Positions 4,803 to 24,263 of a stretch of 46,602 nt of DNA are shown here, piece after piece. Below the pieces are notes generated by a model. The model saw only the letters and a program-made list of their open reading frames with translations. It did no database searches and was not told where the DNA came from. The first letter of the stretch is position 1, and the number at the start of each line of letters is the position of its first letter. The stretch covers positions 1 through 46,602 of IMG/VR virus record IMGVR_UViG_3300032293_001398; one strand, 5' to 3'. This DNA comes from a virus. Made by a program: the position numbers and the translations under genes.

Positions 4803-4907
4803 CTACCCGTTGGCAAAATGGCCAACGAGTGCAGCCAGACCGACGTTAAGCCAAAGAAAAGCCGAGACTGCAAGCAATTCCAGCATTAGCTCTTTCATGG
4901 CCTTCAT
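4803..4907 (-). CDS. 34-residue single-span membrane protein overlapping the cyAbrB gene
   Basis: On the minus strand, ATG at 4907 overlaps the TGA of the upstream cyAbrB-like gene (ATGA arrangement) and runs to a TAG at 4803. It translates to 34 residues: a charged start (MKAMKEL), one continuous hydrophobic segment (LELLAVSAFLWLNVGLAALV) and a short tail HFANG. This is the topology of a single-pass inner-membrane micro-protein. Overlap with the regulator gene argues for translational coupling. Function is unknown; because lysis genes converge on it, an antiholin or membrane-signalling role is possible but untested. Confidence 0.6.
   Translation of the reverse strand: MKAMKELMLELLAVSAFLWLNVGLAALVGHFANG
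4808..4827. terminator. Hairpin between convergent transcripts
   Basis: A perfect 7-bp inverted repeat (CGTTGGC at 4808-4814, GCCAACG at 4821-4827) with a 6-base loop lies exactly where plus-strand lysis genes and the minus-strand operon meet. It has no U run on either strand, so it may stabilise RNA ends rather than act as a classical terminator. Confidence 0.4.
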
Positions 4908-5485
4908 TCGCCGGCCTGATCGAGAAGCGGAGTGCTAGGCTCTTCAGCGCTCTTGCCCTTGCGGGGCACCACGGGCTTGACTTCGCCGGTCGGGGTGAGC
5001 AGAATCTGGCCATCGCCGGGGTAGGACACCTCGAAGATCGAGCCCTCGACAGCGCCCACATTGCGCGTGGCCAGTTGCGACACCAGCAAGATGCCTTGGC
5101 CGCTAACGCGAGCCTTGGTCAAGCCGGCATGGCTACGGCCACCGTTAGCAGACTTGTCGCCTATGTTGACGCCCTTGGCCTCCAGCAGCGCAGCATTGAA
5201 TTGCGCCATGGTGACGCGCTCTCGACCTGTCTTGGTAACAGTGTAGTAGCCGGCGTCGTAAGCGATCTTAGCGTGGCGGCGGCCAGCTTGCTGCTTTTCG
5301 TCGTAGAACGCCAGCAGCTCTTCGCCGGTCAGTCGCCCAAGCTCGGGCGATTCGGGGGCAGGGCAAGCGGCGACACTGTAATCAGCGCTGTCGATGATTT
5401 CCTGGTCGCCTTGCTCTTGAGGCTCGTCGATGATCTGGGGCTCTTCCATGATGGGCTCAAGAGCAGCTTTGGTCTTGGTGGGCAT
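4904..5485 (-). CDS. cyAbrB-like transcription regulator
   Basis: A 193-residue protein; start taken at the ATG at 5485, with an in-frame extension possible to 5512. The N-terminal 50 residues are acidic and disordered. The central part holds the cyAbrB signature: LTGEELLAFYDE, then AYDAGYYTVTKTGRERV, then QFNAALLEAKGVNIGD, followed by a second half ending in a beta-rich SIFEVSYPGDGQILLTP segment. cyAbrB proteins are DNA-binding regulators largely confined to cyanobacteria and linked to carbon/nitrogen balance and other host regulation. The gene has its own strong promoter within the end of the exonuclease gene. It may reprogram host or phage transcription; that is inference. The match to the family is by eye but extends over about 100 residues. 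Confidence 0.8.
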   Translation of the reverse strand: MPTKTKAALEPIMEEPQIIDEPQEQGDQEIIDSADYSVAACPAPESPELGRLTGEELLAFYDEKQQAGRRHAKIAYDAGYYTVTKTGRERVTMAQFNAALLEAKGVNIGDKSANGGRSHAGLTKARVSGQGILLVSQLATRNVGAVEGSIFEVSYPGDGQILLTPTGEVKPVVPRKGKSAEEPSTPLLDQAGE

Positions 5486-5507
5486 TGGATGAATGCGGAC
5501 AGGCAAA

Positions 5508-5536
5508 AGCATAGCACGTAATCAGGCGTGCATCAA
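5508..5536 (-). promoter_or_regulatory. Promoter for the cyAbrB gene
   Basis: On the minus strand, -35 TTGATG (5536-5531), a 17-bp spacer, and -10 TATGCT (5513-5508) with an upstream TGC forming an extended -10. It lies in the last codons of and just after the exonuclease gene and reads into the cyAbrB-like gene. Confidence 0.7.
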
Positions 5537-14364: not shown

Positions 14365-15774
14365 ATGTTTAAGCTGCTACACTATCAGTCTCCTCTTTGC
14401 ACTCAAACAGTCGAGCACATGAATGAAGGTGGGGCGCCATGTCTGGTGTCCCCCACCGGCAGCGGCAAGACTGTCATGCTGGCAGAAATCACACGGCTCT
14501 ATCGTGAATGGGGCTATCAAGTGATGCTCGCAGCACACCGCAACGAGATCATTAAGCAGCTTGCAGCATCATGCAGCAAGCATTGTGGTGAAGCAGTGGG
14601 ATTCTACACGGCTAATCGCATGACCGAGGATCGGGGTATCATGGTAACAATGATGCCCACATTAGCGCGGCGCCGCGAAGCTGTCAGCTCATTTCGTGGT
14701 CGTGTATTGCTGCTAGATGAAGCGCATCATATACAAGCCAAGACATATCAGGAGATCATTAAAGAAATACAGCCTGCATTCTTTGCCGGCGCATCTGCAA
14801 CGCCCATCACGCCCACTGGTGCCGGCCTAGGGAAATATGGCATCACCAAGCTAATTCTTGGCCCGCAGCCTAAACAGCTGATGGATGAAGGGAGCTTGTG
14901 TAAATACAAAATGTTTGGCGGCGACGAGGCCGTTGTCGATACTAAAGGGGTGCCAATTGTTGGCGGCGACTACAAGAAAGATGTAATTGAAGAACGCATT
15001 ATAGAAGTGCAGGGGGACTTCTTGCGTGACTTGCTGCACTTCAACCCTGACCTGCAACCCACCATTACTGTAACGATCAGCATTGATCACGCGCATATCA
15101 TCGCCGCAGAATACAAAGCAGCGGGGATCAGCGCTGAGGTTGTCATCGGGTCTACATCACAGCGCGACCGTGATTATGCTTTTGAGCGCTTCACTGCCGG
15201 CGATCTGAAAGTAATCGTCTCGGTTGCATTGATCGACGAGGGCCTTGATCTACCGGCTGCTACATGCCTGCAGCTGATTAGACCTACACGTTCATTGCGT
15301 CTCTGGAAGCAATTGATCGGGCGCGTGCTGCGCATTGATCCCAGCAACCCAGGCAAAGTAGCGCTGATCATTGACCACGGCAATTGCTGGCGGCAGCTAC
15401 CGCTGCCACATGAGCCGATTGATTGGACATTAGAGGGGAAGGTCAAGCCAAAGAAAGCGCGGCTTGTGCTTGATGAAAACAAGCAGGTTGTCGAAGCACC
15501 CGAGAAGCCCGAGCGTATTCTTGTTGCTCGCGGCGACCGGCAGCAGCTCAGGGAATTGTCTATCGAAAGCCTGTATGAGCAGCGCATACAAAAGCGCGTC
15601 AAAGCTGTCAAAAAGAATCTGTATCTAGTAGAAGCCAAAAACTTTAACCCGGCCATTCTGTGGCCCTGGGCGAACAACCCGGAGGGGCTTGATGATGGCC
15701 AACTGCGCCGCATTGAACGCGCTCTCGGCCTGCCTTACGGGCACTGCAACCCACCCGTCTCCGTGTTCCGTTAA
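14365..15774 (+). CDS. Superfamily 2 DEAH-box DNA helicase
   Basis: A 469-residue protein with the SF2 motifs in order: Q-like start, Walker A SPTGSGKT (29-36), motif Ia AAHRN, motif II LLLDEAHHI (DEAH 118-121), motif III GASATP (142-147), then in the second RecA domain SVALIDEGLDLPAA and motif VI QLIGRVLR. This order and the short length match the phage/restriction-type helicases related to UvsW and RadD. They unwind or branch-migrate DNA in recombination-dependent replication. A GGAGG lies 15 bases upstream of the ATG. The C-terminal 110 residues are specific to this protein. Confidence in helicase class is high; exact substrate is unknown. Confidence 0.9.
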   Translation: MFKLLHYQSPLCTQTVEHMNEGGAPCLVSPTGSGKTVMLAEITRLYREWGYQVMLAAHRNEIIKQLAASCSKHCGEAVGFYTANRMTEDRGIMVTMMPTLARRREAVSSFRGRVLLLDEAHHIQAKTYQEIIKEIQPAFFAGASATPITPTGAGLGKYGITKLILGPQPKQLMDEGSLCKYKMFGGDEAVVDTKGVPIVGGDYKKDVIEERIIEVQGDFLRDLLHFNPDLQPTITVTISIDHAHIIAAEYKAAGISAEVVIGSTSQRDRDYAFERFTAGDLKVIVSVALIDEGLDLPAATCLQLIRPTRSLRLWKQLIGRVLRIDPSNPGKVALIIDHGNCWRQLPLPHEPIDWTLEGKVKPKKARLVLDENKQVVEAPEKPERILVARGDRQQLRELSIESLYEQRIQKRVKAVKKNLYLVEAKNFNPAILWPWANNPEGLDDGQLRRIERALGLPYGHCNPPVSVFR

Positions 15775-15830
15775 TAAGTGTTAAGCTATCAGCACGCAGC
15801 GTTGCGCCCATGCCCGCTGCCGCTTATCGT
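15772..15830 (+). promoter_or_regulatory. TGACWAAnTGTTAAGC element with distant -10
   Basis: TAATAAGTGTTAAGC ends at 15786, starting in the stop codon of the helicase. A -10-like TATCGT follows 38 bases later (15825-15830). The spacing is about one helical turn longer than in most other copies of the element. Confidence 0.45.
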
Positions 15831-15854
15831 TGCATTGTCCAACAAACACCGCTC

Positions 15855-16133
15855 ATGTTCAACCTTTTCCGTCCTCGTATGCCGCGCAAGCGGAGCAGTC
15901 TTCAATTTATCAGCATCAATGGCAACACTTATTTCCGGCACCAGTCGGACATTATCAGGCTTGAGCCTGGCGACGTTGCCGGCGAAGGGAAAGTTTGCGA
16001 CGCTGATCACGTCGCGCCAAATGGTGTGACCATCGCGCAAATCGCTTACGCTATTGCGCTTGTTGAAGGGATGATCGCTGTTACGGATAATCCCTACGGC
16101 AGCCTGACGCGCTCTAGGCTGGGGCTCAACTGA
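15855..16133 (+). CDS. Hypothetical protein
   Basis: A 92-residue protein; ATG 15855 (MFNLFRPRMPRKRSSLQF) is preferred over an upstream extension that would start before the likely transcript start. The basic N-terminus is followed by strands (FISINGNTYFRHQSDIIRLEPGD) and helices (TIAQIAYAIALVEGMIAV). Stop and next ATG overlap. Function unknown. Confidence 0.55.
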   Translation: MFNLFRPRMPRKRSSLQFISINGNTYFRHQSDIIRLEPGDVAGEGKVCDADHVAPNGVTIAQIAYAIALVEGMIAVTDNPYGSLTRSRLGLN

Positions 16134-16303
16134 TGGAGCGCTTTAACTTATGGGTTACAATAAACGAGCATAGTAAGGTCATTTGCTGGGGCGAGCAGTC
16201 TGAGATGAATGACATTGCATTGCAGGCCGGCCTACCTGGGGACGTTCATGTTCTCCCCGATGGCCACGAACCATGCCTTTACAATCCGTCATGCGAACAC
16301 TAA
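16133..16303 (+). CDS. Small hypothetical protein
   Basis: A 56-residue ORF beginning MERFNLWVTINEHSKVICWG, with four Cys overall; the last (PSCEH) lies near the end. The ATG overlaps the upstream TGA by one base. The mixture of strands and Cys might fit a small fold with a metal or disulphide, but this is not established. Confidence 0.5.
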   Translation: MERFNLWVTINEHSKVICWGEQSEMNDIALQAGLPGDVHVLPDGHEPCLYNPSCEH

Positions 16304-16500
16304 TCGCTATCATTGCCCTTGCCAGCAGCATTGCCACAACTAACCTCACGCTTTCTATCGTTCTAGCTATTGTCGGCCTGATTCTTGTCTCCCCATGCAG
16401 ATTAACGTTGAGTACAATTCTATCCCAACGCTTGAAGAGCTTACCTCTGATCTTCAAGCGCTTGCGTTCCCTGTCTCAGTCGAAATCCGGCAAGGGGTAG
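16291..16500 (+). CDS. Possible small membrane protein overlapping its neighbours
   Basis: A 69-residue ORF from ATG 16291 with two hydrophobic segments (about residues 3-18 and 21-38; TLIAIIALASSIA, LSIVLAIVGLILVS) and a basic tail. It overlaps 13 bases of the previous gene and 106 bases of the next one, so its C-terminus is in doubt; the membrane part lies in the otherwise empty gap 16304-16394, which supports it. It might be a phage micro-membrane-protein. Confidence 0.4.
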   Translation: MRTLIAIIALASSIATTNLTLSIVLAIVGLILVSPCRLTLSTILSQRLKSLPLIFKRLRSLSQSKSGKG

Positions 16501-16652
16501 CTCGTTGGCCGAGGTACATTCCTGACGATGACGTTGACTGGGTTGATTGCGACAGCGTAAAAGACCTGCACGACTACATCTGGATTTGCGCTATTTCTGC
16601 CCTACCAATCAGGCTGAACATTCTTGATGATAATGAAGAAATCGACATTTAA
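16395..16652 (+). CDS. Small acidic hypothetical protein
   Basis: An 85-residue protein (MQINVEYNSIPTLEELTSDL, then PDDDVDWVDCDSVKDLHDYI), acidic, with a pattern of short strands and helices. The C-terminus DDNEEIDI overlaps the start of the HNH-like gene. No family recognised. Confidence 0.55.
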   Translation: MQINVEYNSIPTLEELTSDLQALAFPVSVEIRQGVARWPRYIPDDDVDWVDCDSVKDLHDYIWICAISALPIRLNILDDNEEIDI

Positions 16653-17118
16653 GCTCCCGCCCATCACTGAGCTGCGCTTGTTGTTTCACTACAATCCTCT
16701 AACGGGGGCCATTACCTACCTGCAGCAGCGTGGCCGCAAGGCGCCGGGGCAGCCGGCGGGAAGTGTGGTCGATGGGCGGCTTTGGCTTTCGATCAACGGG
16801 CAGCTCTATGCCGCCCCTGCCGTTGCCTGGGCGCTGTTCCATGGCCGCGATCCCGCCGCTGATGGCTTGCACATCACCCCCATCGACAACAACCCGCTCA
16901 ATCTGCAGCTGTCCAACCTGCAGCTCTCCCCTGAGCCGCACAGGCGCACCCCTGGCCCTCGCGTAGGCCGGCGGGCACAGCGAGCCTCCTGGCAGTCACA
17001 TGTTCGCTTTTCGCGGCGTAATGGGTGCTGGAAGGCATACCACAAACGGCGATTACTGGGAGAGTATGAAACTAAAGCGCTTGCGCTTAATGCAAAGCGG
17101 GAGGCGATGAATGGCTAG
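16633..17118 (+). CDS. Degenerate HNH/AP2-type homing endonuclease-like protein
   Basis: A 161-residue protein; ATG at 16633 chosen, with in-frame ATG 16627 also possible. It has the layout of HNH-AP2 homing endonucleases: N-terminal LFHYNPLTGAITYLQQRG, then SVVDGRLWLSINGQLYAAPAVAW, the HNH region HITPIDNNPLNLQLSNLQL, and an AP2-like C-terminus (SWQSHVRFSRRNGCWKAYHK, RRLLGEYETKALALNAKRE). In the active enzyme at 24232 the core reads VDHINGNRLDNR; here the catalytic Asp-His pair is replaced by Thr-Pro. It may be an inactive relic or a DNA-binding protein. It overlaps the genes on both sides. Confidence 0.7.
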   Translation: MKKSTFKLPPITELRLLFHYNPLTGAITYLQQRGRKAPGQPAGSVVDGRLWLSINGQLYAAPAVAWALFHGRDPAADGLHITPIDNNPLNLQLSNLQLSPEPHRRTPGPRVGRRAQRASWQSHVRFSRRNGCWKAYHKRRLLGEYETKALALNAKREAMNG

Positions 17119-17425
17119 GCTAGTACCGTTTGGGCTCACACCTAAAGATCGCCCCAGCCGTCGCATTCGATTTAGCAGTGTCAACATTGGCCGGTGCTTT
17201 TACTATAAGGGGCACTGGTGGCAGAGGCGCACTGTATTTACCGCTCGCCGTGCTGATTGCGATGATGATGATTCAACGCGATTCAGCAAAGGCTTGATGG
17301 TGTATGTTCTCGCTGAAGAGTGTGATGCTGGCAACATTTACTCAATGCAGCAGGAGCGGAAGCAGGGGCAGCTTGATCGAGAGTTTGAGCAGTTCATGGC
17401 GCCGACAGTGGTGGACGATCCGTGA
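17111..17425 (+). CDS. Hypothetical protein
   Basis: A 104-residue protein from ATG 17111, overlapping the HNH-like gene by eight bases. It is basic and aromatic at the start (RRIRFSSVNIGRCFYYKGHWWQRRTVF) and acidic-helical at the end. A beta-barrel nucleic-acid-binding fold is possible but not shown. It is the last gene before a terminator. Confidence 0.55.
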   Translation: MARLVPFGLTPKDRPSRRIRFSSVNIGRCFYYKGHWWQRRTVFTARRADCDDDDSTRFSKGLMVYVLAEECDAGNIYSMQQERKQGQLDREFEQFMAPTVVDDP

Positions 17426-17455
17426 GCCCGCTGGCCCAACCCTAATTTGGCACTG

Positions 17456-17471
17456 TGACAAAGTGTTAAGC
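17456..17471 (+). promoter_or_regulatory. 16-bp element TGACAAAGTGTTAAGC
   Basis: One of the best copies of the repeated upstream element. The -10 box TATGAT (17512-17517, extended by TGC at 17509-17511) is 40 bases after it, with a terminator hairpin between. It precedes the clamp-like gene. Confidence 0.6.
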
Positions 17472-17477
17472 GTTTAG

Positions 17478-17506
17478 GGGTGAGCGTGGCACGCTTGCCC
17501 TTTTTT
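17478..17506 (+). terminator. Rho-independent terminator before the clamp-like gene
   Basis: GGGTGAGCG (17478-17486) pairs with CGCTTGCCC (17492-17500), with two G-U pairs and a 5-base loop, followed by six T. The hairpin contains GGCACGCTTGCC, the exact reverse complement of a 12-mer at 19540-19551 in another promoter, so it may also be a protein-binding site. Confidence 0.7.
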
Positions 17507-17508
17507 GC

Positions 17509-17517
17509 TGCTATGAT
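17509..17517 (+). promoter_or_regulatory. Extended -10 promoter of the clamp-like gene
   Basis: TGCTATGAT matches the extended -10 consensus (TGnTATnnT) 39 bases before the ATG at 17556. The same nonamer occurs at 22631-22639. Confidence 0.6.
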
Positions 17518-17555
17518 GTCATTGTTGATTCAGCCGGCAGCGGCCGAGCATCACA

Positions 17556-18167
17556 ATGACCAAGGCATTCCTTCCCGCACAACTTATTTACGTTGCTGCG
17601 CAATTTACTAGCGCTGATGACTGCAAGAAAGTTCTCACGGCTATCCATGTTAGGCCGGCAAGTGAAGATGGCGGGGTGATCATTGTATCCACTGACGGGT
17701 ATCGCATGTTTCATGTTACATGCCCTGACGCCACTTGGTCCTGCGATCAGCCACTGCTGCTTGATGCTAAGCAGTTTAAGAAGCGCATTGCTTACGGTCG
17801 CTTCATTGCTATTGATGACACTGCCGGCAATGGTGAGGGGGCTCGTATTCTCGGCGGCAAGACTGCAACTGCCGAGTTCCTGCAGTCTATTCCCTGGCTT
17901 AGCGCTCATGCTGATTTGCAGTATCCCAACACTGATCAGCTTTGGCCTGATTCGTTTAAGAATACTCCTGAGGCGCCCACTTCATTTAACGCGCAGCTGC
18001 TAGGAGATTTTTTGCAACAGGTGACACGCTATAGCTGGAATGGTAATGCTGCCATGCAAGTCAATGGCCCAACCAATCCGCTTTTGCTTACGTCAACGAT
18101 TCGTGACACATGCCTTGAAAACGTGGAAATGCGCTTTCTGCTTATGCCTGTCCAGATTCGTGCCTGA
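17556..18167 (+). CDS. Short beta sliding clamp-like protein (two domains)
   Basis: A 203-residue protein resembling the second and third domains of the bacterial DnaN beta clamp. Residues 17-55 (FTSADDCKKVLTAIHVRP, then VIIVSTDGYRMFHV) match the central domain signature where bacteria have ATDGHRLA. Residues 143-203 (SFNAQLLGDFLQQV, VNGPTNPLLLTS, and the end RFLLMPVQIRA) match the C-terminal domain, including the MPMRL-like tip next to the peptide-binding pocket. Bacterial clamps are about 370 residues with three domains; this lacks the first. Two-domain clamps such as PCNA and T4 gp45 are trimers, so this might form a trimeric ring, or cap the host clamp. It has its own promoter, terminator and upstream element. 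Confidence 0.7.
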   Translation: MTKAFLPAQLIYVAAQFTSADDCKKVLTAIHVRPASEDGGVIIVSTDGYRMFHVTCPDATWSCDQPLLLDAKQFKKRIAYGRFIAIDDTAGNGEGARILGGKTATAEFLQSIPWLSAHADLQYPNTDQLWPDSFKNTPEAPTSFNAQLLGDFLQQVTRYSWNGNAAMQVNGPTNPLLLTSTIRDTCLENVEMRFLLMPVQIRA

Positions 18168-18183
18168 TCTTTTAATCCCAGCC

Positions 18184-18360
18184 ATGCCCGCCACCAACTA
18201 CACCGCCGAGCAACGCAAGCAAGCACTTCGCCACGGCATCATAAACGTTATCAAAGCCAACGGCCTTGAAGTCACCGGAGACTTTTGGTTTATGCTGATT
18301 TTTCGCACTGAATCTGAACTCAAAAAGATCGCTCAGGAGTTACACGTCAAAGCCGCCTAA
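18184..18360 (+). CDS. Small hypothetical protein
   Basis: A 58-residue protein, MPATNYTAEQRKQALRHGII with a following strand-helix pair (GDFWFMLIFRTESELKKIAQEL). It lies 16 bases after the clamp-like gene and is probably co-transcribed. It has the size of a small replication accessory or clamp-binding partner, but no clamp-binding motif is visible. Confidence 0.55.
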   Translation: MPATNYTAEQRKQALRHGIINVIKANGLEVTGDFWFMLIFRTESELKKIAQELHVKAA

Positions 18361-18437
18361 CCCACCTCACGGCCCGCCGGAACCCATCCGGCAGTCATTC
18401 ACTCAACTCGCAAGGTCTTACTGCAAAGGGAGTGGAA

Positions 18438-18463
18438 CCGGGGGCAACCGCCCCCCCTTTTTT
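18438..18463 (+). terminator. Rho-independent terminator after the clamp operon
   Basis: GGGGGC (18440-18445) pairs with GCCCCC (18450-18455) over a 4-base loop, followed by extra C and six T. Confidence 0.75.
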
Positions 18464-18474
18464 GTGCTTGCGGC

Positions 18475-18504
18475 TTGATTAGCTGGGCTTATGATTAGTA
18501 TAAA
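18475..18504 (+). promoter_or_regulatory. Sigma70-type promoter
   Basis: -35 TTGATT (18475-18480), 18-bp spacer, -10 TATAAA (18499-18504). It lies immediately after the terminator and would drive a short leader RNA containing the 32-residue ORF. Confidence 0.6.
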
Positions 18505-18525
18505 TGTATTGTTACACGTAGTCTC

Positions 18526-18624
18526 ATGGGTAGACTCAAGTTGGGGACCGGCTTTTGCTTTGCGATGACTACTGAACAGCAAAATTGCCCTGAGCAAATC
18601 AATCACACCCTAGCTGCCCTGTAA
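18526..18624 (+). CDS. Possible 32-residue micro-ORF
   Basis: ATG 18526 to TAA 18624, starting MGRLKLGTGFCFAMTTEQQN. It begins about 15 bases after the expected start of transcription from the promoter at 18475. There is no ribosome-binding site and no recognisable motif, so it may be part of a non-coding leader instead. Confidence 0.25.
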   Translation: MGRLKLGTGFCFAMTTEQQNCPEQINHTLAAL

Positions 18625-18688
18625 ACACTGGGTTTCGCAAGAGAAATTGCGTGTGACAGAGAGCCTTTGAATGTTTTTTTTTCACCCT

Positions 18689-18702
18689 GTATCCATTTAT
18701 AC
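18689..18702. promoter_or_regulatory. GTA-N8-TAC site, NtcA-box-like
   Basis: GTATCCATTTATAC is an exact match to the GTA-N8-TAC core bound by NtcA, the cyanobacterial nitrogen regulator. Its centre is about 55-60 bases upstream of the TATAAT at 18749, further than the usual class II distance. It could be a chance match in AT-rich DNA. Confidence 0.4.
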
Positions 18703-18748
18703 CAAAAAAAATAGGTACAACTATCCAGTTGCTCACAACAGTAGAGGG

Positions 18749-18754
18749 TATAAT
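18749..18754 (+). promoter_or_regulatory. TATAAT -10 box of the small terminase promoter
   Basis: A perfect consensus -10, about 155 bases upstream of the gene at 18912. A weak -35 (TTGCTC, 14-base gap, or AGTTGC, 16-base gap) lies before it, which suggests activator dependence. Confidence 0.5.
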
Positions 18755-18831
18755 TATTTAGTCATACTAAGGCTTTTACCCCCCTTAGGGGCATAGGACA
18801 GTAGATGCGTACTACCCATAAGCTGAGCCCG

Positions 18832-18882
18832 TTCCCCTGCCGGCCAGGGAAAGCGCGAGCAGGGGGTGATTTGCGCGAGCAG
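18832..18882. repeat. Hairpin and 20-bp-spaced direct repeats upstream of terS
   Basis: TTCCCCTG (18832-18839) pairs with CAGGGAA (18845-18851) with one bulge. GCGCGAGCAG occurs at 18853-18862 and again at 18873-18882, exactly 20 bp apart, on the same face of the helix. This lies 30 bp before the probable small terminase gene and could be its binding (pac or cos) site or an operator. Confidence 0.4.
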
Positions 18883-18911
18883 TTAGCATTCAGCGCAGAA
18901 CGAGCGAAACG

Positions 18912-19460
18912 ATGGACCTCCCCATTCACTGCCGGCCCGATAGCGAGCGACTACTAAGAGCGCATAATGCTTGGGTCGCTGACTGGGATCTAAGCAATCA
19001 AGAATCAGAAGAGGCCCCTGATTTTGATGCGCTCGTACAAAAGGCATTCACATTATACGCTCGTGGATTATTGCCCATTCAAGTTAGATGGAAGCTACGC
19101 CAGGACCATTCATCCGTGCCGGCCCGCGCCTTGACGCGAGCACAGCGGCACGCTGAGCAGGCCCTATGTGCCGCCGAGAGTGCCCCACCAGAGCTACGCC
19201 GCGCCATGGTCGCCGCTCAGCGCCAGCAGGCCATCCAGGGCGCCCTGGCGGACGGTCAGTGGGGAGCAGCGCTCAAGGGCTTGGACCGGGCTGGAGAGAT
19301 CGCTGGGGAGCTGCGGGAGAGTGCTGGCCTGAGCGCAGAGGATCTAGTGCTGACTGTGAGCGTCGAGGCCCATTCAGAGCTGCCTGAGGGCGATTCGCAG
19401 CCGGTTGCAGCCGAGACCGAAGGCAATCTCACCTCCGAGACAGCCGAGACAGAAGGCTAA
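18912..19460 (+). CDS. terS: Probable small terminase subunit
   Basis: A 182-residue protein. An N-terminal helical region (residues 1-75; FTLYARGLLPIQVRWKLRQD) could hold the DNA-binding fold. The centre (residues 95-150) reads RRAMVAAQRQQAIQGALADG, then GAALKGLDRAGEIAGELRES, the long-helix pattern of terminase small-subunit oligomerisation domains. It ends in a beta strand and an acidic tail. TerS recognises the packaging site and loads TerL. The call rests on this pattern and on direct repeats just upstream; TerL is unusually far away (3.5 kb) and on the other strand. Confidence 0.5.
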   Translation: MDLPIHCRPDSERLLRAHNAWVADWDLSNQESEEAPDFDALVQKAFTLYARGLLPIQVRWKLRQDHSSVPARALTRAQRHAEQALCAAESAPPELRRAMVAAQRQQAIQGALADGQWGAALKGLDRAGEIAGELRESAGLSAEDLVLTVSVEAHSELPEGDSQPVAAETEGNLTSETAETEG

Positions 19461-19516
19461 GCGCTTATTGAGAATGGCTGCGCCGCAATGAGTCTCGGCC
19501 AAGACAGTCCCTAATG

Positions 19517-19567
19517 CGACTGTTTGTTAAGCATTCATGGGCAAGCGTGCCATTCATGGGCTATTGT
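19517..19567 (+). promoter_or_regulatory. 16-bp element with -10 at 29 bp
   Basis: A weaker copy (CGACTGTTTGTTAAGC, ends 19532) followed exactly 29 bases later by TATTGT (19562-19567). Between them ATTCATGGGC occurs twice, and GGCAAGCGTGCC (19540-19551) is the reverse complement of a site at 17488-17499. Confidence 0.55.
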
Positions 19568-19595
19568 ATGGGGGCATTCATTCAAAAGGCATTCA

Positions 19596-19829
19596 ATGAA
19601 GCGCACTGTCAACGGAAGAAAGTATGGCTTGCGGGTGATGGACCGAGACGCCGCGGCCTCTCCGGGTTTGGCTGGCAGCCTTAACTATGCCATGCAAAGG
19701 CACGCTGAAACCGGCAAGCCCTACATTGTCTCGGCCTATGGGCATGTGACGCTTGATTGTCCGCACAATCGAAGCGTTTTAATGTCTGGTGACTTTGGCC
19801 CTGTCGCCGCCTTTACGGTGGCGCTGTGA
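19596..19829 (+). CDS. Small hypothetical protein with its own promoter
   Basis: A 77-residue basic protein (MKRTVNGRKYGLRVMDRDAA, then LAGSLNYAMQRHAETGKPYI) from ATG 19596, just after the promoter element above. It shows short strands and one helix. No family recognised. It ends inside the next copy of the 16-bp element. Confidence 0.55.
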   Translation: MKRTVNGRKYGLRVMDRDAAASPGLAGSLNYAMQRHAETGKPYIVSAYGHVTLDCPHNRSVLMSGDFGPVAAFTVAL

Positions 19830-19877
19830 CTAATTGTTAAGCATTCACCCTAGCCCGTGCCATTCATGGGCTAGTAT
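19827..19877 (+). promoter_or_regulatory. 16-bp element TGACTAATTGTTAAGC with -10
   Basis: A near-perfect copy (19827-19842) whose TGA is the stop codon of the upstream gene. TAGTAT (19872-19877) follows after exactly 29 bases, and it is flanked by GGGC and GCCC, forming a dyad over the -10. Confidence 0.65.
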
Positions 19878-19898
19878 GCCCCTAGTTGCATTCATCCC

Positions 19899-20144
19899 AT
19901 GAAACACACCACGCATTCAGGCTGCCAGATCACTTATGCGCCATTCTGGCTAGTTTGGCTGCCGCCGCCTGATGGTGGGCCAGAGCGGTTCCCGCACTTG
20001 CGAGTGACCCGCCCATCATCAGGCAATGGCGAACCACTGACTGAGCAGGAAGCGCTGCAGTGGTGGCTGCATTCTGCCGTGAATGGTTGCACGGCAACGG
20101 GAGAGGTCGAAGAATGCCTAGACCTGTTGCGTGATTGTGACTAA
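19899..20144 (+). CDS. Small hypothetical protein
   Basis: An 81-residue protein, MKHTTHSGCQITYAPFWLVW, with a Pro/Trp-rich first half and a helical acidic end (LTEQEALQWWLHSAVNGC, then EVEECLDLLRDCD). It carries its own promoter element and ends inside the next one. Function unknown. Confidence 0.55.
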   Translation: MKHTTHSGCQITYAPFWLVWLPPPDGGPERFPHLRVTRPSSGNGEPLTEQEALQWWLHSAVNGCTATGEVEECLDLLRDCD

Positions 20145-20188
20145 TTGTTAAGCACCTAGCCGCACCGCTGCCATTCATCCCCTATAGT
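20138..20188 (+). promoter_or_regulatory. 16-bp element TGACTAATTGTTAAGC with -10
   Basis: An identical 16-mer to the one at 19827. The upstream gene's TAA stop lies inside it. TATAGT (20183-20188) follows after 29 bases, within CCCC-TATAGTA-GGGG, again a dyad centred on the -10. Confidence 0.65.
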
Positions 20189-20214
20189 AGGGGAGCCCAA
20201 CCACTCAAACCGCC

Positions 20215-20733
20215 ATGACCCGCGTTACCGCTAAAATGCTGGATCGTAACTGCGCGATCCTGTGCCGTTTGCTCGATTGCCCTGACGCCCCATACATCAA
20301 CGGTGTTATTCAGCCTGGCTGCATTTATATCTCCAATGCGGGCTACGGCTACGGCATCGAGCAGATTGTAGACGAAAAGGGCTGCATTCAGGTTCACGCT
20401 TCCGGCATGTCTGCCGCTGAATGCTACCGATGGCTGGAGGGTGCCTTTATGGCCTGCCGCGTTACCGGGCATGATGGCCCAATAGCTGAGCGCTGGAATG
20501 GTCGCAGCCTGCTTAGCGGTTCCCGCGTTTGCGCTACCGTCAAGTATTGCGGCCCGACCCATACTAAGCCGGCTCGATGGAAAGCAACCATAGAAGATAT
20601 TTCTTGCTTTTCCCCATTCACTGATGGACCTGTTGAGGCGGGAATTAAAGTTGCGCGAAAACGCGAACTGAGCAGCGCCAAGCCGCGCCATGCTTCACAG
20701 GTTAGCCCAGACTTTTACGTGATTGAGTTTTAA
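20215..20733 (+). CDS. Hypothetical protein, Cys-rich
   Basis: A 172-residue protein with nine Cys, including NCAILCRLLDCPDAPYI and KYCGPTHTKPARW. The middle is glycine-rich and aromatic (GYGYGIEQIVDEKGCIQVHASG), and the C-terminus is basic. The Cys spacing does not match a standard zinc finger. It is the largest protein of the element-driven small-gene cluster; function unknown. Confidence 0.55.
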   Translation: MTRVTAKMLDRNCAILCRLLDCPDAPYINGVIQPGCIYISNAGYGYGIEQIVDEKGCIQVHASGMSAAECYRWLEGAFMACRVTGHDGPIAERWNGRSLLSGSRVCATVKYCGPTHTKPARWKATIEDISCFSPFTDGPVEAGIKVARKRELSSAKPRHASQVSPDFYVIEF

Positions 20734-20743
20734 GCATTCATCC

Positions 20744-20798
20744 GGCGCCATTCATGCTGGCGCCATTCATTCATTCATTCATTCATTCATTCATTCAT
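20744..20798 (+). repeat. ATTC microsatellite and GGCGCCATTCAT repeat
   Basis: GGCGCCATTCAT occurs at 20744-20755 and 20759-20770, and the second runs into about eight ATTC tetranucleotide units (20765-20798), directly before the ATG at 20801. CATTCA is strongly enriched in the noncoding DNA of 19.5-21.05 kb. Confidence 0.9.
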
Positions 20799-20800
20799 CC

Positions 20801-20929
20801 ATGATTGTCATTGTTCGCGCTAATCACTGGGAGCTGATTCGCTCCCCGCAAACGGTCGCGGCTGCCTGGCGGCTGGCAGACAAGCTAACCGCTCAAACTG
20901 GCGTAGCACACTGGGTTGGCAGAATGTAA
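20801..20929 (+). CDS. 42-residue hypothetical protein
   Basis: ATG 20801, right after the ATTC tandem repeat; translates MIVIVRANHWELIRSPQTVA, then AAWRLADKLTAQTGVAHWVG. A longer in-frame start at 20723 would translate the microsatellite and is rejected. It looks like a compact strand-helix-strand protein. Expression could vary with repeat number (phase variation by spacing), which is inference. Confidence 0.5.
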   Translation: MIVIVRANHWELIRSPQTVAAAWRLADKLTAQTGVAHWVGRM

Positions 20930-20952
20930 CGCTGCAGTCAGCCCGCCCATTG

Positions 20953-21002
20953 TGACAAAACGTTAAGCATTCAGGCCCCATTGCGCAATCCCGCGCTAGT
21001 GT
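20953..21002 (+). promoter_or_regulatory. 16-bp element TGACAAAACGTTAAGC with -10
   Basis: TGACAAAACGTTAAGC (20953-20968) followed after 28 bases by TAGTGT (20997-21002). It precedes the gene at 21030. This copy is not inside a stop codon, which shows the conservation is not just a stop-codon effect. Confidence 0.6.
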
Positions 21003-21029
21003 ATGGAGGTAGTCACGCATTCATTCATC

Positions 21030-21296
21030 ATGGCATCGCTTAAGTTTCGCGTTGACACCGAAGAGGTTAATGAGCACGACCAAACTGTAGGCTATACATG
21101 TTGGATAGGTGGACCCACCCTAGCCAGAATTATTGGCGCGGTTTGTGATGACAGCCGGCGCCGAACCGCATATGTTACGGGCGAACCAGATACATTCTTC
21201 AGCTTGCCTGCCAGGGTTAATGTAGGCAAGCGGAGCGTATCGGGATGGCTGAGTGTGGATGATGGCCTGTGGCGGTTCCACGGTAACTGTAACTAA
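21030..21296 (+). CDS. Small hypothetical protein
   Basis: An 88-residue protein. ATG 21030 is chosen because an in-frame ATG at 21003 overlaps the -10 box. It is beta-rich (MASLKFRVDTEEVNEHDQTV, YTCWIGGPTLARIIGAVCDD, then RVNVGKRSVSGWLSVDDGLW) and could be a small beta-sandwich. Function unknown. It ends in the next element. Confidence 0.55.
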   Translation: MASLKFRVDTEEVNEHDQTVGYTCWIGGPTLARIIGAVCDDSRRRTAYVTGEPDTFFSLPARVNVGKRSVSGWLSVDDGLWRFHGNCN

Positions 21297-21338
21297 GTGT
21301 TAAGCGCCCATAGGCAAGCGTCGCAGCTTGCCTATACT
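21290..21338 (+). promoter_or_regulatory. 16-bp element TAACTAAGTGTTAAGC with -10
   Basis: The element (21290-21305) spans the upstream stop codon. TATACT (21333-21338) follows after 27 bases. In between, GGCAAGC and GCTTGCC form a 7-bp inverted repeat just upstream of the -10. Confidence 0.6.
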
Positions 21339-22922: not shown

Positions 22923-24263
22923 TCAGTAAACGCGATGCGTGGTGATCGCCCCTGTCTCCCCTTTATTCATGTTGAAGCGACCCAGGCATAAATAGCCAAA
23001 GGCGTCAAACGAGTGGTCTACACCGAGCTTCTTGTTTGGCATTCGCGTACCTTCAGCGTAGCCTAAAGTCCTGAAGCTCTTAATCAGCTCACGGCAGCGT
23101 GGGTTGATCTTGGTATGCACCTCGCCATCAGCTGTACGCAGCGCTGCATTAACCGCCCGTATCTTGTCAGCAATGTTATACGGGGCCTCGGGAGCGTAAA
23201 CTGTAATTCCGGCCTTGCGGAGGATCTGATGATCGCTCACGCCTACGCCGGAAGTTTGTTTGCGCTTGCCGGTGGGGTCGGGGCAGGCAATTTTACGTCG
23301 ATTTTCGCCATAAAGATCATTGAGCACTTCAGCCATATCCCAAGTTGTCGCACCTTTTAAGTTCAGCTCGTTAAAGACACGCAATTCGACGGCTCGACCC
23401 TTAACGCGGACGATATTGGCGCAAATAGCGGTCAATGGGTCGTTGTTAAAGTCCATGCCGATGTAAAGCGGCAGATTTTCATCATCTTCAACGGTCGAGT
23501 CAAGGTTTAGCATTGAAAAGCACGATGCAACCAGCCCTGAATTGCTGATAATTTTGGCCTCGTATTCGCGTTGGAAAACTTCAAGAGCAAGCGTGCGGCG
23601 GGCCTCTTCAATCTCCTGCGGTGGGATGTTGCCGCCCTGCAGTGACGTGTATTCATAAAGCGCCCATTGCTCGGGATCGAGGCGCTGCAGCCCAGGATCG
23701 GCCTGGTCGGCATCAGTGAGCAGCAGCACCAGCTCGTAGAACCAGCCCGAGACGCCCTCGGGGGACGGCGTGGTCGTGAACAGGCCCCAGCCCAGGCGAT
23801 CAGACAACGCCGGCCTGATGACTGACCGCCAAGCGTCCTCGGGCAGGAAGGCGCATTCGTCAAGGACCGCCCCGGACAGCGCTCGACCGCGCAAGGAATC
23901 GTAGTTCTCGGCCCCCTTCAGCTCAATGCTGGAACCGTTAATTAGCGTAATCGAAAGATTGGATTCGTTCTTTTTTCTGATCCATTGCTTCGGAGTCATG
24001 CGCTTCAGCGTCTCCCAAGCAATGTCATGCGCCATGCGGTATGAAGGGGCAACATAAAAGTAATCCCCGACTCGTTCGCTGGCACCACGCAGCAGCTCGG
24101 TGCATCCCAGCACCGTCTTTCCTCCCCTCCTGCCGGCAAGAACGACGCGAAAGCGCCTGCGATCACGAAAAATACGTCCCTGCATTGGACGCAGGGAGAT
24201 AGAGTTTTTGCCTGCTAAAAAGTCACCGCTTTCACGGGACTTCGGGGGCGCTGCGACTGGCAT
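22923..24263 (-). CDS. terL: Terminase large subunit
   Basis: A 446-residue protein, normal length. ATPase: Walker A GRRGGKT (44-50), Walker B GAVLDECAFL (Asp135, Glu136), coupling motif FTTTPSP (162-168). Nuclease: Asp271 in YIGMDFNNDP, Asp329 in CPDPTG, and Asp416/Asp420 in VDHSFDAFG. TerL pumps DNA into the capsid and cuts it. It lies on the minus strand, while portal and capsid genes run on the plus strand, an uncommon arrangement. Its start overlaps the end of the HNH gene by 32 bases, so it depends on that gene's transcript or on a promoter inside it. Confidence 0.92.
   Translation of the reverse strand: MPVAAPPKSRESGDFLAGKNSISLRPMQGRIFRDRRRFRVVLAGRRGGKTVLGCTELLRGASERVGDYFYVAPSYRMAHDIAWETLKRMTPKQWIRKKNESNLSITLINGSSIELKGAENYDSLRGRALSGAVLDECAFLPEDAWRSVIRPALSDRLGWGLFTTTPSPEGVSGWFYELVLLLTDADQADPGLQRLDPEQWALYEYTSLQGGNIPPQEIEEARRTLALEVFQREYEAKIISNSGLVASCFSMLNLDSTVEDDENLPLYIGMDFNNDPLTAICANIVRVKGRAVELRVFNELNLKGATTWDMAEVLNDLYGENRRKIACPDPTGKRKQTSGVGVSDHQILRKAGITVYAPEAPYNIADKIRAVNAALRTADGEVHTKINPRCRELIKSFRTLGYAEGTRMPNKKLGVDHSFDAFGYLCLGRFNMNKGETGAITTHRVY

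Follow-up and report, generated by a model that had tools for sequence, protein, structure and literature searches.

An upstream element at helically phased distances from -10 boxes, a putative activator site, heads promoter cassettes of small genes in a clade of uncultured cyanobacterial viruses

Which function would be served by a short element that recurs in front of individual small genes of a phage, at set distances from a -10 box? This question is raised by the IMG/VR virus record IMGVR_UViG_3300032293_001398, the whole of which, 46,602 bases, was analysed and is termed the window here. From the sequence features described below, we consider it likely that the element is an upstream activator site of clade-specific, -35-less promoters of the sigma-70 type in freshwater-type cyanosiphoviruses, with a binder that would probably be encoded by the phage and with cassettes that are shuffled among phages. 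The gene content of the window is that of a tailed phage, comprising helicase, portal, terminase, capsid and tape-measure-type genes; no near match to the first 25,000 bases was found among deposited phages, and no tRNA genes were found in the window. The portal protein is nearest to that of cyanophage S-2L (34%), followed by those of other cyanobacterial siphoviruses, and this affinity, together with a cyAbrB-like gene, makes a cyanobacterial host very probable. The host likely belongs to the order of Cyanobium, while the portal itself gives no host assignment, since its homologues in three genomes of that order are only 33-44% identical. The product of 17556-18167 looks, on inspection by eye, like the sliding clamp of a DNA polymerase and is assigned as RusA-like by PHROGs; a scan of viral contigs with this protein gave no matches, and a weak Pfam beta-clamp match (E 0.057) was seen in one of 89 clade proteins scanned.

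The first-pass annotation had reported seven plus-strand copies of a 16-mer, each followed by a -10 box of the form TAnnnT, and all seven are present in the window at the distances it had claimed (Table 1). When up to three mismatches are allowed, the 16-mer has 11 matches, as compared with 1.4 expected from dinucleotide shuffles, none of 100 of which reached 11. The copy at 19517, weak by the 16-mer (three mismatches), is identical in two relatives, G021 and G022. It is also a further copy without a stop codon, beyond those at 17456 and 20953, and the earlier remark that such copies exist is right. Relatives, too, have an element where copy 1 stands, immediately behind the helicase gene, and copy 2 is retained in six of eight orthologs of its downstream gene.

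Table 1. Features of the window that bear on the repeated element; distances run from the element end to the -10 box.
Feature	Position	Strand	-10 box	Distance	Basis
cyAbrB-like transcription regulator gene (PF14250), candidate regulator	4904..5512	-			Pfam match over cut-off
Helicase gene	14365-15774	+			
Hypervariable cassette island, helicase to large terminase; contains every strong element of the genome	15775..22922	+			
Element copy 1 (TTAATAAGTGTTAAGC)	15771..15786	+	TATCGT 15825-15830	38 bp	window sequence
Element copy 2 (TGACAAAGTGTTAAGC)	17456..17471	+	TATGAT 17512-17517	40 bp	window sequence
Stem-loop GGGTGAGCGTG/CACGCTTGCCC with T6 run, terminator-like, between copy 2 and -10	17478..17506	+			sequence
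Element copy 3 (CGACTGTTTGTTAAGC)	19517..19532	+	TATTGT 19562-19567	29 bp	window sequence, G021/G022 identity
Element copy 4 (TGACTAATTGTTAAGC)	19827..19842	+	TAGTAT 19872-19877	29 bp	window sequence
Copy 4 stem-loop CTAGCCC...GGGCTAG	19850-19874	+			
Element copy 5 (TGACTAATTGTTAAGC)	20138..20153	+	TATAGT 20183-20188	29 bp	window sequence
Element copy 6 (TGACAAAACGTTAAGC)	20953..20968	+	TAGTGT 20997-21002	28 bp	window sequence
Element copy 7 (TAACTAAGTGTTAAGC)	21290..21305	+	TATACT 21333-21338	27 bp	window sequence
Copy 7 stem-loop TAGGCAAGC...GCTTGCCTA	21311-21334	+			
Large terminase gene, convergent with the island	22923-24263	-			

Relatives were collected by a pattern scan of viral contigs and by a search with the helicase protein, and as many as twelve strong copies occur per relative. 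Their wider consensus, YGTKACWAANTGTTAAGC, comprises about 18 letters, is longer than the 16-mer and contains two half-sites 10 bp apart; a trained position matrix, YGT[TG]AC[AT]AANTGTTAAGC, equally reads as two GTTA-type half-sites with a period of ten bases, its core columns carrying 1.4-2.0 bits, while the stretch between element and -10 box diverges. Exact sites of the core AANTGTTAAGC number 93 in 21 of 22 records, and those of the reversed pattern 0. For a comparison of the clade with unrelated viruses, contigs were fetched by exact element matches and by an AbrB search; 118 of 130 clade elements have a correctly spaced -10 box, versus 26 of 181 chance matches in unrelated viruses (among the matches listed), and no repeated, promoter-linked element was found in unrelated viruses among the matches listed. 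Nor was the element found in the known relatives S-2L, S-H1 and KBS-S-2A. The element is real and clade-specific, and by these sequence comparisons it is confined, together with its spacing, to one clade of uncultured cyanobacterial viruses. Cyanophage S-2L (L261, MW334946) has five near-identical promoter-like repeats on the minus strand, TTGCG ~17 bp TTTAATA, at 2502, 3221, 4150, 5270 and 5939, close to the beginnings of small genes of this strand; their motif differs from the element, and the style of a repeated promoter is alike.

Conserved spacing in related phages had been named as support for a promoter role, and such conservation is found: among 146 sites, TAnnnT is most frequent at 29 bases (41 sites) and 39 bases (32 sites) from the element, with 1.5 expected per distance. 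Since copied cassettes may inflate these peaks, sites with downstream 50 bases at least 60% alike were merged, whereupon TAnnnT at 28-30 or 38-40 bases was seen in 29 of 41 non-redundant sites and in 0, 0, 2 and 1 cases in equal-sized control windows. The repetition consists in part of copied cassettes and not of independent sites. The other 12 of the 41 strong elements are without TAnnnT at the expected distance, where some of them have CATAAT instead. When dissimilar sites are aligned, element and -10 box prove conserved and most of the spacer does not; because spacers less than 60-65% identical go together with an unaltered element, -10 box and spacing, the spacing is under selection in its own right. 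Within the sequence evidence it is this spacing that argues most strongly for the element as part of a promoter, and the two discrete distances fit a contact on one face of the helix. Good -35 boxes had been said to be absent, and indeed no more than 5 of 37 dissimilar sites match TTGACA in at least four of its six bases at 16-18 bp. If the spacing is taken together with the orthologs treated below, the sequence gives good support to the proposal of a promoter set with a common upstream element at helically phased positions. Downstream of the element two styles occur, GCTAnnGTnnGGgaGcA in the short-spacing class and TATnaTtaCaTTGTTCAAC in the long-spacing class. A conserved box, TTGTTCAAC, lies ~5-15 bases after the -10 box in the long-spacing promoters of the clade (17518-17528 in the window), around the expected transcription start, and is possibly an operator or a start-site signal. 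Leaders of the short-spacing class contain many ATTCAT repeats (window 19533-21030), which recur in relatives, and a run of ATTC units is located near 20765-20800.

In ten genomes, all strong elements lie on the helicase strand within the island between helicase and terminase, and in most of them the first element directly follows the helicase gene. Portal and helicase are encoded on one strand and the large terminase on the other, in the window as well as in relatives. Each element stands close behind the preceding gene. Lack of conservation upstream of orthologous genes had been named as an outcome that would speak against a regulon; at the level of sequence, 14 of 27 orthologs of element-preceded window genes retain the element, as against 2 of 107 that have one where the window gene is without it. 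Where the upstream flank is conserved, the agreement ends 0-10 bases after the element in 26 of 30 cases. Agreeing downstream flanks start in or just before the element; for these the fit often failed, as the genes become dissimilar a short way past the promoter. Judged by these junctions, whole units are exchanged between phages, breaking at the element. Of 42 dissimilar sites, 23 have a predicted stem-loop between element and -10 box (z below -1), in some cases with a T run, and with roughly half of the sites so equipped, many units would be composite terminator-promoters. That the element heads a shuffling cassette, that a stem-loop frequently precedes the -10 box, and that the strong copies are gathered in a single genomic island are points absent from the first-pass annotation.

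With regard to the protein that would bind the element, its restriction to the clade and its lack of enrichment in Cyanobium-type genomes favour a phage-encoded factor over one of the host. The only recognisable candidate is the cyAbrB-like protein, put forward here as a hypothesis only. Its gene is found in eight of eight relatives of at least 42 kb, and the PF14250 family in only Synechococcus elongatus among 14 control genomes; no classical helix-turn-helix or other known DNA-binding regulator was seen among 89 small clade proteins. The predicted structure is of low confidence (pLDDT 61), with AbrB and SpoVT among the top fold matches, which are insignificant, and a genome scan with an AbrB alignment gave no matches. 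To our knowledge, cyAbrB proteins are not known for a tight site like the element. A phage-captured homologue of this nucleoid and transition-state regulator might have come to activate a plug-in promoter in a sequence-specific manner, which we advance tentatively and with considerable doubt; if true, any small gene captured with a cassette would join the regulon of the cyAbrB homologue.

Alternatively, the phage might have taken over an OmpR-family response regulator of its host, either PhoB or an RpaB-like protein acting on HLR1-like sites, and by means of this binder the cassettes would follow the light, redox or nutrient state of the host. The first half-site, GTTACWAA, and the 10-bp period agree with the HLR1 consensus (G/T)TTACA(T/A)(T/A)NN(G/T)TTACA(T/A)(T/A) (PMC11633204), the location near -50 to -60 is that at which RpaB activates, and use of host PhoB by cyanophages provides a precedent (PMC10976474); due to this partial match a host regulator of this family is still to be considered. 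GTTAAG, however, which is the most conserved half, deviates from HLR1, a repeated promoter-linked form is lacking in unrelated viruses among the matches listed, and host genomes are not enriched in the element, so that we regard a host binder as unlikely. The exact element is absent from 399 genomes of the order of Cyanobium, as is the reversed control, albeit the true host may lie elsewhere. With one mismatch there were 8 versus 6 control matches in 38 Cyanobium-type genomes, phages in the same search being matched as expected; with two mismatches, 9 versus 12 in 11 such genomes; and for the combination of core, spacing and -10 box, 4 versus 22. A host regulon with the same element is rejected for Cyanobium-type genomes, there being no excess over control. 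A full HLR1 site is likewise rejected, the second half being GTTAAGC in nearly all copies, and so is a Pho box, which requires three tandem TTAA repeats (PMC11126600), the element consensus having a single TTAA. Some host matches, TGACCAATTGTTAAGC for example, are shared by several genomes, in an apparent conserved gene end. Cyanobium-type psbA promoters (L159, L163, L164) have a CGCAAnnTTCTGTTACRTTGC-like sequence in common, of which the part TTACATTG is present also at long-spacing phage promoters.

That swaps break at the element or no more than a few bases away, and that it is placed close behind the previous gene, would also agree with a boundary of homologous or site-specific cassette exchange, for which the -10 distance is simply inherited with the cassette. 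Such a boundary would not predict a pair of discrete spacings that differ by one helical turn, nor the persistence of element, -10 box and spacing beside diverged spacers, and scanning of the proteins covered here revealed no recombinase; we consider it distinctly unlikely as the main role. Asymmetric, orientation-fixed sites at gene ends are known as stoperators of mycobacteriophages, and the element has these properties, which might suggest a repressor site that silences cassettes at gene boundaries. Its fixed distance upstream of the -10 box without overlap of the promoter core, and its restriction to one island, render such silencing improbable. A contact of the UP-element type for the alpha subunits of RNA polymerase, without a dedicated regulator, would suit an A+T-rich element at ~-59 to -42, but not one with the strongly conserved G and C of GTTAAGC, unlike A-tract UP elements, nor its occurrence at -69 to -52; as Cyanobium-type genomes show no excess of such promoters either, this contact is judged very improbable.

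Summarizing, and returning to the activator site as the preferred reading, a putative activator protein, most likely phage-encoded, would bind at ~-59 to -42, or upstream of this by one turn of the helix, possibly as a tandem dimer on the half-sites GTKAC and GTTAAG, 10 bp apart, and would recruit host RNA polymerase to the TAnnnT -10 box; binding, activation and the identity of the binder are what we infer here. Element, optional stem-loop and -10 box would constitute a regulatory cassette heading individual small genes, and as cassettes would shuffle between phages at the element, new genes would be connected to the regulon as soon as they join the island. By this, an uncultured cyanophage group would gain a defined promoter class, and small genes of no assigned function, probably host-acting, would be marked as one regulon. 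It suggests a way for phages to acquire small genes pre-wired for expression, and element plus spacing may be used to find cassettes in metagenomes and to retrieve the regulator.

The proposed mechanism is a variant of known activator-dependent phage promoters and of PeSL-type cassettes. Late promoters of P2/P4 (Ogr/delta) and the Mor/C promoters of Mu have an activator site at ~-50/-55 and no -35 box, an arrangement that would be shared here by the putative site; a tandem GTKAC/GTTAAG stands in place of their TGT-N12-ACA dyad, two positions one helical turn apart are used, and no Ogr, Mor or C homologue was seen. HLR1 of RpaB is alike in the half-site GTTACAWW, the 10-bp period and the activating position upstream of the core promoter, and differs in that GTTAAGC replaces the second (G/T)TTACA(T/A)(T/A), a form not used in Cyanobium-type genomes. 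In integron attC sites, a hairpin brings GTTRRRY together with a RYYYAAC that lies upstream of it, and an integron integrase acts with them; GTTAAGC fits GTTRRRY, whereas the stem-loops lie downstream of it, beside the promoter, and no integrase was seen among the proteins scanned, in a scan not aimed at integrases. SAS/ESAS of cluster K mycobacteriophages are likewise short repeated elements with a dyad before many small phage genes, but they are located at the ribosome-binding site, whereas the present element precedes the expected transcription start by 50-60 bp. The promoter-stem-loop (PeSL) cassettes of T4-type phages (Arbiol 2010 and Comeau 2014, cited in PMC4503421) belong to another kind of phage: a T4-type early promoter in a T4-like myovirus is rejected for the window, with its cyanosiphovirus-type portal, long tape-measure-type protein and lack of a -35 box. 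Compared with PeSL, the units of this cyanobacterial siphovirus are headed by a conserved far-upstream element, have a stem-loop in about half of the cases and are without -35. In principle they may also resemble PeSL as composite units of promoter and stem-loop placed between small genes, a -10 box being present in most copies and the stem-loop at the frequency given above. What they have in common with PeSL is that genes are shuffled at these units, as is seen here from the swap junctions at the element.
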